A stretch of DNA of 64,000 nucleotides, taken from Thermoleptolyngbya sichuanensis A183. GTDB taxonomy: Bacteria > Cyanobacteriota > Cyanobacteriia > Elainellales > Elainellaceae. The notes below the pieces were generated by a model. That model was not told the origin of the DNA. It ran no database searches and saw nothing but the letters and a program-made list of their open reading frames with translations. A program made the translations under genes and the position numbers. The stretch lies in contig NZ_CP053661.1 of assembly GCF_013177315.1 (NCBI RefSeq), positions 930,001 to 994,000 on the forward strand, in the 5' to 3' direction. Of the stretch, positions 55,457 to 60,415 are shown piece after piece. Positions within the stretch are counted from its first letter, which is position 1. Each line of letters begins with the position of its first letter.

Positions 55457-55568
55457 AAGCTGTTCGTTGACGTTTCGTGCTTCGCCCTGCGACTTTACTC
55501 CTCTTTATCCCACTGCTTTAGCCGTTTGGTATCTGCTTCCTACCCCTTCGTTTTCTCCAGGATCTACC

Positions 55569-57179
55569 GTGACTCCCCAAGTTGATTCCCTCTCCCCCAC
55601 CGCCGAACCGTCTGCCCATCTTACCCGCCAGATGATCGTCATTCTGGACTTTGGCTCCCAATACTCCGAGCTAATTGCCCGCCGCATTCGCGAAACCCAG
55701 GTTTATTCCGAGGTGCTGAGCTATCGCACCACCCCGGAGCAAATTCGGCAACTCAGCCCCAAAGGCATCATCCTGTCGGGCGGGCCCAGCTCGGTGTATG
55801 ACGAGCGGGCCCCCCACTGCGATCCCGAAATTTGGAACTTGGGCATCCCCATCCTGGGGGTGTGCTACGGGATGCAACTGATGGTGCAGCAGCTTGGCGG
55901 CAGCGTGGAGCGGGCTGAGTGCGGTGAGTACGGCAAAGCAGCGCTGTTTATCGATGATCCCACCGACCTGCTGACCAACGTAGAAGACGGCACGACCATG
56001 TGGATGAGCCACGGCGACTCGGTGACGGCAATGCCGGAAGGGTTTGAACTGCTGGCCCATACCGAAAACACGCCCTGTGCGGCGATCGCCCACCACGAGC
56101 GCAAACTCTACGGCGTACAGTTCCACCCCGAAGTCGTGCATTCCCTCGGCGGCCAGGCCCTGATCCGCAATTTCGTCTATCACATTTGCGAATGTCAGCC
56201 CACTTGGACAACGGCGGCCTTCGTCGAAGAAACCATTCGAGAAATTCGCGCCAAGGTGGGCGACAAGCGGGTGCTGCTGGCGCTGTCAGGCGGGGTCGAT
56301 TCCTCCACGCTGGCGTTTTTGCTGCATCGGGCGATCGGCGACCAGTTGACCTGCATGTTCATCGACCAGGGCTTCATGCGGAAATATGAGCCGGAGCGCC
56401 TGGTCAAGCTGTTTCAAGAGCAGTTCCACATTCCAGTGGAATACATCAATGCACGGGAGCGGTTTCTGGAACGCATTAAGGGCGTGACCGATCCTGAAGA
56501 AAAACGAAAGCGGATCGGTCACGAATTTATCCGCGTCTTTGAAGAAGAATCCAAGCGGCTCGGCCCCTTTGACTATCTGGCGCAGGGTACGCTCTATCCG
56601 GACGTAATCGAGTCGGCAGACACAAACGTAGACCCGCAAACGGGTGAGCGCGTCGCCGTAAAAATCAAGAGCCATCACAATGTCGGCGGCTTGCCCAAAG
56701 ACCTGCGGTTCAAGCTAGTGGAGCCGCTGCGGAAGCTGTTTAAGGACGAAGTGCGGAAGGTGGGCCGCTCCATTGGGCTGCCGGAAGAAATCGTCAACCG
56801 TCACCCGTTCCCTGGCCCCGGTCTGGCAATCCGCATCCTGGGCGAAGTCACGGCTGAGAAGCTGGATATTCTGCGGGATGCTGACCTGATCGTGCGCCAA
56901 GAGGTGAACCGCAGCGGCACCTACAGTATGTTCTGGCAGGCGTTTGCGGTGCTGCTGCCGATCCGTAGTGTGGGTGTCATGGGCGACCAGCGAACCTATG
57001 CCTACCCCATTGTGCTGCGGTTTGTTTCCAGTGAAGATGGCATGACGGCCGACTGGTCACGCGCTCCCTACGACCTGCTGGAAACCATTTCCAATCGCAT
57101 CGTCAACGAGGTGCGCGGCGTGAATCGGGTCGTGTATGATATTACCTCTAAGCCGCCTGGAACCATTGAGTGGGAATAG
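55569..57179 (+). CDS. guaA: GMP synthase (glutamine-hydrolysing)
   Basis: GuaA converts XMP to GMP. I place the start at the GTG at 55569 (preceded by AGGA), since the longer frame to 55467 adds residues unlike other GuaA proteins; the start [14 protein letters not shown] is a further candidate. The product has 536 residues: class I amidotransferase domain ([18 protein letters not shown] with Cys, [11 protein letters not shown] with His-Glu), PP-loop domain [20 protein letters not shown] near 240, [20 protein letters not shown], and the dimerisation domain [20 protein letters not shown] ending [10 protein letters not shown]. Confidence 0.97.
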
Positions 57180-57320: not shown

Positions 57321-57377
57321 AGGAGGCGCTTCGATGCAGGAGGCGCTTCGATGCAGGAGGCGCTTCGATGCAGGAGG
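57321..57377. repeat. 17-bp tandem repeat, three units plus partial
   Basis: AGGAGGCGCTTCGATGC at 57321, 57338 and 57355 are identical; AGGAGG of a fourth follows. Confidence 0.92.
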
Positions 57378-57451
57378 AATAGACGCGCAGGACAAGGGCG
57401 ATCGCCCTCTGAGAGACTCTCCTGCGGCAATGCAACGCGGCATGGTTTGCG

Positions 57452-57518
57452 GACGCATGTTTGCCGACGCATATATTCGGTGACGCATATATCGGTGACG
57501 CATCTTTTTGTGACGCAT
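57452..57518. repeat. Five GACGCAT iteron-like repeats
   Basis: GACGCAT occurs at 57452, 57466, 57482, 57497 and 57512, spaced 14, 16, 15 and 15 bases, all in one orientation. They lie about 60 bases before the DnaA-box cluster. Confidence 0.75.
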
Positions 57519-57575
57519 CAAGACATAGCCAGCCATAGCGCCCTTGGCAATCCCTATTTTGAACAGAGGTACTAG

Positions 57576-57640
57576 TTTTCCACAAAAGCCTGTGGAAAAC
57601 CTATGTTTATCTGTGGAAAACTCCCCTTTTGTGTGGAAAA
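57576..57640. other. Cluster of four perfect DnaA boxes; candidate origin or DnaA-binding locus
   Basis: TTTTCCACA occurs on the plus strand at 57576-57584, and its complement TGTGGAAAA at 57591-57599, 57612-57620 and 57632-57640. The first two form an inverted pair with a 6-base spacer; the three minus-strand boxes are spaced 21 and 20 bases, about two helical turns. An AT-rich segment (GTTTACTTATATTTTTAAGA) follows within 15-20 bases. TTTTCCACA is the DnaA box form known in cyanobacteria. No dnaA or dnaN is in the window, so origin status is unproven. Confidence 0.7.
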
Positions 57641-57916
57641 AGGGGAGACTTTTGGTATGTTTACTTATATTTTTAAGATGGAAAAATTGTTCTGTAGGGG
57701 CGATCGCCCATCTTTTTCCCGCTTCTTTCCTCGCTTCTGCAACCAAGCTCTCCCTTAATTGCGACAGGATGGCCCACTGAATCCTGACCGACACAACTCC
57801 GACACAACCAGAGAACAGCGGTAGAGTGGAAGCAGTGCATCTGTCATCGGCTTCCAGTTTTGTCGTCCGGTTTATTCTGTATTCTCCCGGTTCATCCCGT
57901 TCCCTCTGTGCTGGCT

Positions 57917-60415
57917 ATGGATGCTGGAGCTTCCCCACAACCGAGTCCTTCTAATTTGGGCCAGCGGGCCATGGCGGTCGTGCTGGTCACAGACGCGGTG
58001 GGCTACAACTCGCGCATGGCCGACGACCCGGAGCATACCCTCAGCCTGATCCGGCGCGACTTGCAAAAAATGCGTCAGCTTTGTCAGCAGTTTGAAGGAA
58101 TCGTGCTGAAATCGCTGGAAGACGGGCTGGTGATGTACTTCGTCAGCACCGATCGAGCCGTAAACTGTGCTATCGAAATCCAGCGGTCAATGGCGCAGCT
58201 TTTGCAAGAACTGCCTGAAGACGACGTGCTAAGCCATCGCATCGGCATTCACCTGGGCGAGGTCGTCGTGCAGGCGAACGACGTGACCGGGCAGGCGGTG
58301 ACTGTGGCGACGCGGCTCCAGGAAGAAGCGGCTCCACGCGGCATCTGTATGTCGCAGTCGGTCTACGACTCTGTAAAATCGAGGATTTCCCTGAGCGCGT
58401 CCTATGTGGGGTCGCTGAAGCTCAAGAACCTGCAAGAAGCGATTCAGGCCTATCAGATTACGCCCGCTATTCCGGCCAACGTTACCCCCGGCGGCAGCCC
58501 CATCGAGGAATCGGAGCTAACCCTGGGCACGCTGATCAACAGCCGCTACCGAATTCAGCGGGTGCTGGGGCAGGGTGGCTTTGGGCGGACGTATCTTGCA
58601 TCTGATGAACACTGCTTTGGCGATGCCTGCGTGCTAAAGGAGTTTGTACCTGCCAGCCGCACAGAATATGTCGTGCAAAAGTCGCGGGAACTGTTTGAAC
58701 GCGAGGCGCGGGTGCTGTATCAGATTAATCACCCGCAGATTCCTCGGTTTTTGGCGTGGCTGACCGACCGGGGACGGCTGTTTCTGGTGCAGGAGTATAT
58801 TGACGGCAAGACCTACGGCCAGCTTTTGCAAGAGCGCCAGCGGCGAGGAGAGCCGCCCTTTTCGGAAGCGGAAATTGTGCAGTGGCTCTGTGATTTGCTG
58901 CCGGTGCTGGAGTATCTGCACGGCTTGAATATCCTGCACCGCGACATTTCTCCCGAAAATATCATGCTGCCCAAGGACCAGACCCATCCGGTGCTGATCG
59001 ACTTTGGGCTGGTCAAGCAGACCGTCAGTCAGATCCTCTCGGCAGCGGGTAGCAGTCCAGGCAGCGCTCAGGCTTCGGTGGTGGGCAAGTTTGGCTATTC
59101 TCCGCCAGAGCAAATTCGCATGGGGCAATGCTATCCGTGCAGCGACCTGTATGCGCTGGGGGTGAGTGCGGTGGTGCTGCTGACGGGGCAAGATCTGAGC
59201 GTGCTGATGGAGCATACGTCGCTGGAGTGGCGCTGGCGGGAGTATGCCCCTGTGAGCGATCGCCTCGTGCGGATTCTCGATCGGCTGCTGTCGGAAAAGC
59301 CGAAGGATCGCTACCAGACGGCGCGGGAGGTGCTGACCGATCTGCGGGCGCTGTCGCTGCCAGAGGTCAACGAAGACCGCCTGATCGAGGTGCAAATCGA
59401 TTTAGACCAGAGCAAGCGCCAGCGACAGGTGGATGAAATCGTGCAGTCGGCGTTTTTCCAAGACCTGATGCAAAACCTCGATCGGTTTCGGGGTGCGTTT
59501 GATTCGCTGGTGGCGGAGCCAGGAGAGTCGGCACAGCCATCGGCAGCCGCGCCCGTCGAGCGTCTTGACAGTTCGCTGCCAGAATTACCTCTAGAGTCAT
59601 CTCCCGATTCGCCGCCTGCGCCACAGGTGTTGTTCGGTATCTCTGCGATTCAGCCTGGTGTTGTAGAAGAGGCGGTTTGGAAAACGTCGTTTCCTTCGCT
59701 GGATGCCGAAGCAGAGGATTTTCCTGAATATGCGGTAGAGGAGTCGATCCCCCTGTCTCCGTCTGCGCCAGACGACGCTCGGTTTGACGACGATCGGTTG
59801 ACCGAGCCGCCCGCCGCAACGGAGTCGCCTTTTACCGAACCGCCGCCCGCCACACTCCAGCACACGATTGAAATGCCGCTGGCAGACACCAGCGTTCCCC
59901 CGCTCCAGCCTCGTGTGCCTGCGCTCTGGCTGGAGGCGTGCCGTCGGGAACTGGCGGAGTGTATTGGCCCGATGGCGAAACTGCTGCTGGACTCGGTGCT
60001 GGCCAAGCAAACGGGGCTATCGGCAGAGGCGCTGCTGGAGGCGATCGCCATGAGAATTCCCAATCCTGCCCAGGCAAGCCAGTTTCGCCGCCGTATGCAA
60101 AATCGGGCGATCGCCGCTCTGTTGGACGTTCCCGACCCCCCGCTGCCGCTCGTTTCGACGGACGAAGCCGTTCCCAACCCCCAGCGTCTGCCCCAGGAGC
60201 CTGCACTGGGCGCAGCGGTGGATGAGACATTTTTGACACAGTGCCGTCAGGCGCTCTCGGAAGCGATTGGCCCAATGGCAGGACTTGTCTTGCGGGATGT
60301 GGTGGCTCGACATCCAAACGTAGGCCCGGCAGAACTCGTGGAGGCGATCGCCACGAAAATCCCCAATCCCCAAGCGGCAGCAGCATTTCGGCAACGCCTG
60401 AAGCCTTTGATATAA
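57917..60415 (+). CDS. Cyclase-homology domain fused to Ser/Thr protein kinase
   Basis: From the ATG at 57917 (MDAGASPQPSPSNLGQRAMA) the protein has 832 residues. Residues about 15-180 are a class III cyclase homology domain: VVLVTDAVGYNSRM (first metal Asp), IVLKSLEDGLVMYF (Lys and second Asp), GIHLGEVVVQANDVTGQAVT and VATRLQEEAAPRGICMSQSV. The transition-state Asn expected before the ATRL motif is Thr. A protein kinase follows at about 215-490: GQGGFGRTYLAS, CVLKEFV, LHRDISPENIML, VLIDFGLVK and GYSPPEQIRMGQCYPCSDLY, all catalytic elements present. A Pro/Ser/acidic linker leads to two similar C-terminal repeats (RRELAECIGPMAKLLLDSVL...IPNPAQASQFRRRM and RQALSEAIGPMAGLVLRDVV...IPNPQAAAAFRQRL). 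It is cytoplasmic; targets unknown. Confidence 0.9.
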   Translation: MDAGASPQPSPSNLGQRAMAVVLVTDAVGYNSRMADDPEHTLSLIRRDLQKMRQLCQQFEGIVLKSLEDGLVMYFVSTDRAVNCAIEIQRSMAQLLQELPEDDVLSHRIGIHLGEVVVQANDVTGQAVTVATRLQEEAAPRGICMSQSVYDSVKSRISLSASYVGSLKLKNLQEAIQAYQITPAIPANVTPGGSPIEESELTLGTLINSRYRIQRVLGQGGFGRTYLASDEHCFGDACVLKEFVPASRTEYVVQKSRELFEREARVLYQINHPQIPRFLAWLTDRGRLFLVQEYIDGKTYGQLLQERQRRGEPPFSEAEIVQWLCDLLPVLEYLHGLNILHRDISPENIMLPKDQTHPVLIDFGLVKQTVSQILSAAGSSPGSAQASVVGKFGYSPPEQIRMGQCYPCSDLYALGVSAVVLLTGQDLSVLMEHTSLEWRWREYAPVSDRLVRILDRLLSEKPKDRYQTAREVLTDLRALSLPEVNEDRLIEVQIDLDQSKRQRQVDEIVQSAFFQDLMQNLDRFRGAFDSLVAEPGESAQPSAAAPVERLDSSLPELPLESSPDSPPAPQVLFGISAIQPGVVEEAVWKTSFPSLDAEAEDFPEYAVEESIPLSPSAPDDARFDDDRLTEPPAATESPFTEPPPATLQHTIEMPLADTSVPPLQPRVPALWLEACRRELAECIGPMAKLLLDSVLAKQTGLSAEALLEAIAMRIPNPAQASQFRRRMQNRAIAALLDVPDPPLPLVSTDEAVPNPQRLPQEPALGAAVDETFLTQCRQALSEAIGPMAGLVLRDVVARHPNVGPAELVEAIATKIPNPQAAAAFRQRLKPLI

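Follow-up and report, generated by a model that had tools for sequence, protein, structure and literature searches.

A conserved DnaA-box array downstream of guaA, outside the dnaN-linked origin candidate, in Thermoleptolyngbya sichuanensis A183

Is a tight cluster of DnaA boxes on the chromosome of Thermoleptolyngbya sichuanensis A183 the place where replication starts, or a site outside the origin at which DnaA would be held? The stretch of DNA analysed here, referred to as the window, comprises 64,000 nucleotides (positions 930001–994000 of a chromosome of 5,525,100 bp assembled as one contig), and the array of boxes is situated at ~987.6 kb. The original prediction described it as oriC or a DnaA-titrating site. 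Sequence conservation lends good support to the DnaA-binding or titrating half of this proposal, whereas the oriC half is contradicted by a stronger cluster elsewhere. Judged by its sequence, what lies here is an array of DnaA boxes that is conserved and separate from the oriC candidate at dnaN.

The array and its surroundings

Four perfect copies of TTTTCCACA lie within 65 bp, at 57576–57584 on the plus strand and at 57591–57599, 57612–57620 and 57632–57640 on the minus strand. As originally described, boxes 1 and 2 form an inverted pair, and the minus-strand boxes are about two helical turns apart, with steps of 21 and 20 bp. Each box matches the published cyanobacterial DnaA box in all nine letters, and this published box is reported to be bound by domain IV of DnaA in gel-shift experiments (PMC4674748). 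Chance had been considered an unlikely source of the cluster, and randomization of the window bears this out: 200 sequences from a first-order Markov model have a maximum of one exact box per 65-bp stretch. A search for three tandem boxes found the triple of the array as the only one in the genome. The features of the locus are listed below.

55635..57179, plus strand: guaA, encoding glutamine-hydrolysing GMP synthase and pointing at the array (NCBIfam PRK00074.1, 808 bits, residues 57–570 of the ORF at 55467–57179)
57452..57518, plus strand: five GACGCAT repeats, 14–16 bp apart, not conserved (motif count)
57575..57600, plus strand: 10-bp hairpin built from the inverted box pair, a by-product of the inverted boxes (hairpin search)
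57576..57584, plus strand: fourth exact DnaA box, inverted relative to the triple (exact match)
57591..57640, minus strand: core of the array, three tandem exact DnaA boxes (exact match; conserved in relatives)
57621..57647, plus strand: terminator-like 10-bp hairpin with the last box in its loop and 3' arm (hairpin search)
57860..60415, plus strand, start codon provisional: protein with an N-terminal guanylate-cyclase-like domain and then a Ser/Thr kinase domain (Pfam PF00211, PF00069)

Three features of the window are not shared by relatives, namely its hairpins, its AT-rich stretch and its GACGCAT repeats. The five repeats do precede the boxes, starting at 57452, 57466, 57482, 57497 and 57512, and the AT-rich stretch does follow them, at 57652–57693. 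Over the whole window GACGCAT occurs 11 times versus 9.5 expected, and it is the local five-fold array alone that stands out. The view of these repeats as iterons or as part of a conserved element was dropped, as five copies here compare with one in the same-genus locus L134. An AT-rich flank common to relatives was not seen among 71 triples, in which mean AT per 10-bp flank bin ranges from 0.50 to 0.64 with no clear peak. The hairpin at 57621–57647 is regarded as local because its arms differ in L134.

Both dnaN (413429–414568) and dnaA (3741162–3742493) are located away from the boxes, in agreement with the earlier description. The statement that the array occupies the longest gene-free region of the window is not correct, since the gap between guaA and the kinase gene is ~0.68 kb and five gaps are longer (740–2856 bp). 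The gap map is mechanical and uses ORFs of at least 150 aa; some of the five longer gaps contain shorter ORFs, and a 171-aa ORF, taken as spurious, fills the guaA–kinase gap in this map. Two other repeats were observed in the same region. Tandem 17-bp repeats of the AGGAGGCGCTTCGATGC type are present at 57321–57371, just past guaA, and the palindrome GGGCGATCGCCC occurs twice (57396–57407 and 57698–57709), 302 bp apart, bracketing the GACGCAT repeats and the boxes.

Conservation, spacing and gene setting

Loci containing guaA were fetched by protein similarity alone, without regard to boxes, and the best 80 of at least 579 relatives were compared. A strict array, defined as two or more exact minus-strand boxes with a spacing of 18–23 bp in the 1 kb that follows guaA, is present in 18 of these best 80 loci, with 0 of 36 in Nostocales and 18 of 44 in the others. 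The Nostocales were sorted from record titles, and in the guaA tree these 36 rows group as a single clade. Among the 26 non-Nostocales loci without a strict array, two end at a contig edge, and array-less loci with less than 600 bp after guaA (L038 and L052; L041, L053, L069 and L076 in Nostocales) are possible false negatives. On the guaA tree (81 rows, weak backbone) the trait undergoes 8 changes versus a shuffled mean of 17.9, and none of 500 shuffles is as low. L007, with two exact boxes 43 bp apart and one-mismatch boxes in phase, is counted as array-bearing in the tree and stands outside the strict 18 of 80.

The 44 non-Nostocales loci carry 56 exact minus-strand boxes within 800 bp after guaA versus 0.1 expected, whereas minus-strand near-boxes in the same loci are at chance level (9 versus 6.9 expected for one mismatch and 66 versus 63 for two). 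This excess of exact boxes over near-boxes is the pattern that selection on binding sites would be expected to leave. The plus strand of these loci has 5 exact boxes (0 in resamples) and 12 one-mismatch boxes versus 4.4 expected; as in the window, L062, L070, L079 and the same-genus L134, which are a subset only, have an exact box in inverted orientation at a distance of 15 bp. Three tandem boxes occur in 27 of 40 relatives and in 38 of 386 genomes of a phylum sample, with one reversed-control match. All 38 fall in the 186 genomes of the same class, and triples are near-absent in two families counted by hand (1 of 42 in f6, 0 of 57 in f19). The searches use the exact box and pass over degenerate arrays. 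The locus thus has what characterizes the broad class of DnaA-box clusters outside oriC, namely several boxes outside oriC that are kept by selection.

The spacing of the boxes is narrow. Tandem exact-box pairs in 36 family genomes from 21 genera show a step of 20–22 bp in 123 of 139 cases, with steps of 12–42 bp allowed (15 pairs at 20 bp, 68 at 21 bp and 40 at 22 bp). Every genome has at least one pair, some pairs overlap, many are from near relatives, and the reversed control gave one match. A pair at 19–23 bp is present in 143 of 194 genomes of a class sample, with 0 for the reversed control. Triples alone give 132 of 142 steps at 20–22 bp, which is not the main figure, since steps in that search were limited to 17–23 bp and some of the 71 triples are linked to dnaN. 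A phased pair is also present in the dnaN cluster of this genome (414976/414997, step 21), and 7 of 20 further family pair loci adjoin a dnaN-like gene, named by eye. The phasing may be a general arrangement of DnaA boxes, because phased pairs also occur beside dnaN.

Phased boxes were also observed at other kinds of site. A second phased exact pair outside oriC in this genome, at 1391510–1391540 (L004:6511–6541), lies 5' of a small DUF2811 gene (Pfam). This type of site recurs as pairs in L245, L246, L251 and L253 and as triples in L137, L143, L157 and L162, with a look-alike protein recognized by eye. Another recurrent family pair is located at pdxJ-like genes (L247, L248, L249 and L250; name judged from the protein sequence). 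Sixty-five stretches of viral-collection contigs (L255–L319) bear the same phased TTTTCCACA triple, and some of them, namely L285, L288, L299, L303, L311, L315 and L319, have 10–12 exact boxes, mostly at steps of 20–22 bp. The arrays on viral contigs are possibly DnaA-dependent phage origins or DnaA decoys.

Besides the window, guaA was named in 17 triple-bearing loci, in all 17 of which it points at the boxes and the boxes are on the opposite strand. The neighbor scan covered 64 rows of triple-bearing loci, including a few repeat readings. Spurious ORFs hid guaA from it in the window and in L139, which is the same place as L090, and at L090 another guaA pointing at the array was missed. The far neighbor varies between a ~200-aa protein (10 loci; no Pfam match for the one member scanned), a CDF transporter (8 loci; identity from one member scanned) and the kinase (the window and L134). 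When 52 triples are sorted by setting, 26 are between converging genes, 21 between tandem and 4 between diverging genes, and 1 is inside an ORF. Repeat readings of one place (L098, L112, L163), dnaN-linked loci (L138, L155) and loci from the same genus as a counted one (L099, L101) were removed before this count, which also leaves out five loci without an ORF of at least 150 aa within 900 bp on one side.

The gene setting bears on the possibility that DnaA serves at this site as a transcription factor or as a roadblock, controlling the downstream kinase/cyclase gene or read-through from guaA. The array is ~220 bp upstream of the co-directional kinase/cyclase gene in the window, so that a promoter role is possible in the genus of the window, and the phased pair 5' of the DUF2811 gene, seen in other genomes too, suggests that DnaA may use such pairs to regulate genes. 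The DnaA regulon of E. coli is reported to include nucleotide-synthesis genes (PMC11317965), and guaA is such a gene. In all 17 loci in which the scan named guaA, however, the array follows this gene and does not precede it, and triples lie most often between converging genes. A promoter role appears unlikely because the boxes are kept while the far neighbor changes, often at gene ends. The kinase/cyclase gene adjoins the array only in the window and in L134 among the loci compared, and a kinase-promoter element was rejected as the general role. Overall, control of transcription is an unlikely explanation of the array.

The dnaN-linked cluster and the origin

A search for other box clusters, which had been proposed as a check, goes against oriC at the array. 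Six exact boxes are present at 414820–415005, compared with four here. This cluster, the densest in the genome, is just upstream of dnaN (minus strand) and 573 kb from the array. Exact boxes number 73 genome-wide versus 35 for the reversed pattern. The boxes of the dnaN cluster are in both orientations, in contrast to the tandem boxes of the array, which are mostly on one strand. The dnaN cluster further has TAGTAGTAG near a box, in the form of the DnaA-trio motif described in PMC7561715. The pattern TAGTAG-N3..30-TGTGGAAAA is found on the chromosome only at 414798–414828 (one site with two overlapping readings), with 1 match for the reversed control. A run of at least three TAG/TAA triplets occurs in 7 of 9 dnaN-linked clusters compared with 1 of 59 other triples, and the array of the window is without such a run. 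The 9 clusters are those with at least two exact boxes, this genome included, and the stretches read for them are partly longer than those for the triples. The single other triple with a run, L116, adjoins dnaA.

Cyanobacterial origins are reported to be commonly upstream of dnaN (PMC4674748). The array is not the main box cluster of its chromosome, has neither dnaN nor dnaA adjacent to it and has no DnaA-trio by a box. It is probably not where chromosome replication starts, because the stronger six-box cluster with a DnaA-trio-like run sits beside dnaN; that cluster would be the active origin. The output of oriC finders on such genomes calls for caution, since a cluster of TTTTCCACA is not necessarily an origin.

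GC skew, from which a decision had been hoped, was rejected as the arbiter, as the 46 stretches available (~0.9 of 5.5 Mb, 16%) give no usable profile. The best two-arc fit has an R2 of 0.18, compared with a mean of 0.13 and a maximum of 0.29 in 30 permutations. With the start placed at the array the fit has an R2 of 0.07 and the wrong sign, versus 0.16 at dnaN, both within noise at 16% sampled. Most cyanobacterial genomes are reported to have an irregular GC skew (PMC7198777).

A second or former replication origin at the array is an improbable reading, although a DnaA-box cluster next to AT-rich DNA would suit it, some cyanobacteria are reported to use multiple origins (PMC7198777), and the GC skew sampled is compatible with it. 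The absence of a TAG/TAA run, the lack of a common AT-rich flank and the one-strand tandem boxes, unlike the mixed-strand dnaN cluster, argue against it, as does the poorer, wrong-sign skew fit within its noise. Other lineages may differ. The 1.7 kb surrounding the start of dnaN was read in 20 other genomes, and 13 of them have no exact box or just one in it, because of which dnaN cannot safely stand in for oriC in those genomes; triples in other families could belong to an origin, and in some lineages box arrays away from dnaN can be origins.

A possible role in DnaA control

DnaA would be expected to bind the array, because its boxes have exactly the sequence of those in the dnaN cluster and of the published consensus (PMC4674748). 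The same identity of nine letters makes it very improbable that a protein other than DnaA binds TTTTCCACA here. That the array is an RNA or terminator element or a set of chance repeats is extremely improbable: folding with DNA parameters is more favorable for the strand than for its shuffles (z −4.5), and there are two terminator-like hairpins versus 0.9 expected, but the spacers vary among relatives, many rows have same-strand boxes only so that no common hairpin is seen, Rfam gives just two matches, located elsewhere and far below gathering scores, and the Markov and guaA-locus counts exclude chance.

The reading we prefer, by a little over an even chance, is that the array is a DnaA-binding control site outside oriC, working like datA of E. 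coli. Several DnaA molecules would bind boxes that share one helix face, two turns apart and mostly on the same strand. The array would hold DnaA and perhaps shift its ATP state, leaving less for the real oriC at dnaN, and duplication of the array after initiation would double this DnaA sink. Titration and an effect on initiation are suggested by analogy with datA, with the clusters of Bacillus subtilis and Streptomyces, and with recent titration work in E. coli (PMC12371093). A search of this genome for YabA gave no match. Nothing above the cut-off was found for Hda, whose absence means little because just one of 14 control genomes gave a match to the model above this threshold.

The closest counterparts in E. 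coli are datA and DARS1/DARS2, which, as described in PMC4585315, are, like the array, non-coding box clusters outside oriC with a conserved place among relatives and spacers that are freer than the boxes. What the sequence shows here is a cluster of exact boxes outside the dnaN cluster; datA is defined by a cluster of high-affinity boxes outside oriC, with a functionally spaced IHF site between boxes, promotes DnaA-ATP hydrolysis and, when lost, gives over-initiation. The array differs from datA in that its boxes are mostly uniform and tandem at ~21 bp, it adjoins guaA and it belongs to a different phylum. A further difference is in position. E. coli datA and DARS are reported to keep their relative distance from oriC (PMC4585315), whereas the array–oriC distance is not constant, at ~4.4, 10.4, 21.9 and 35.5% of the genome in G133, G000, G284 and G344, respectively (worked out by hand). 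These four genomes, of which G000 is that of the window, are of different families; each has boxes clustered at dnaN, and in each the array and this cluster share a contig. An earlier compilation for 13 genomes (1.2–46%, 9 of 13 below 25%), drawn up for a fixed distance from dnaN, was set aside, dnaN being an unsafe proxy.

The box clusters of B. subtilis (DBCs) and the Streptomyces cluster are also outside oriC and are reported to restrain untimely initiation (PMC4585315, PMC5295017). A review describes the B. subtilis clusters as minor for initiation, though deletion of all six gave early initiation (PMC5295017). Unlike these systems, there is one main array here, with narrow phasing and deep guaA linkage. 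The cyanobacterial oriC upstream of dnaN has the same box TTTTCCACA and also a 21-bp pair. The dnaN cluster of this genome differs in its larger number of boxes in both orientations, its TAG-repeat DnaA-trio-like run and the adjacent dnaN, of all of which the array has just one inverted box. The double boxes of the E. coli DnaA regulon resemble the array in being paired on one strand. They are reported to be 2–3 bp apart (PMC11317965), whereas the gap in the array type is usually 11–13 bp, and a 12-bp step, the smallest allowed by the search, accounts for only 5 of 139 family pairs. The array belongs to a known class of elements, in which its phased form and its deep linkage to guaA are distinct. 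Our searches of open-access papers showed no account of an array of DnaA boxes outside oriC for cyanobacteria, or of one next to guaA.

Nostoc sp. PCC 7120 is reported to be DnaA-independent (PMC7198777). The absence of the array at guaA in Nostocales fits this report, and the array may mark DnaA-dependent replication, on one clade-level coincidence. A wider and rather doubtful proposal is that the array is an ancestral cyanobacterial locus of DnaA control, two-turn-phased and mostly on one strand, originally situated between guaA and a converging neighbor, which would help limit, in the manner of datA or DARS, how many of the many chromosome copies fire, and which would be missing at guaA in Nostocales because replication in that lineage has ceased to depend on DnaA.

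Work on Synechococcus elongatus (mBio 2019) refers to yet-unknown factors in restricting replication among chromosome copies (PMC6478999). The array is a concrete cis-acting candidate for limiting DnaA in polyploid cyanobacteria, and it could be deleted without touching a gene. It may help decide when copying begins in cyanobacteria.
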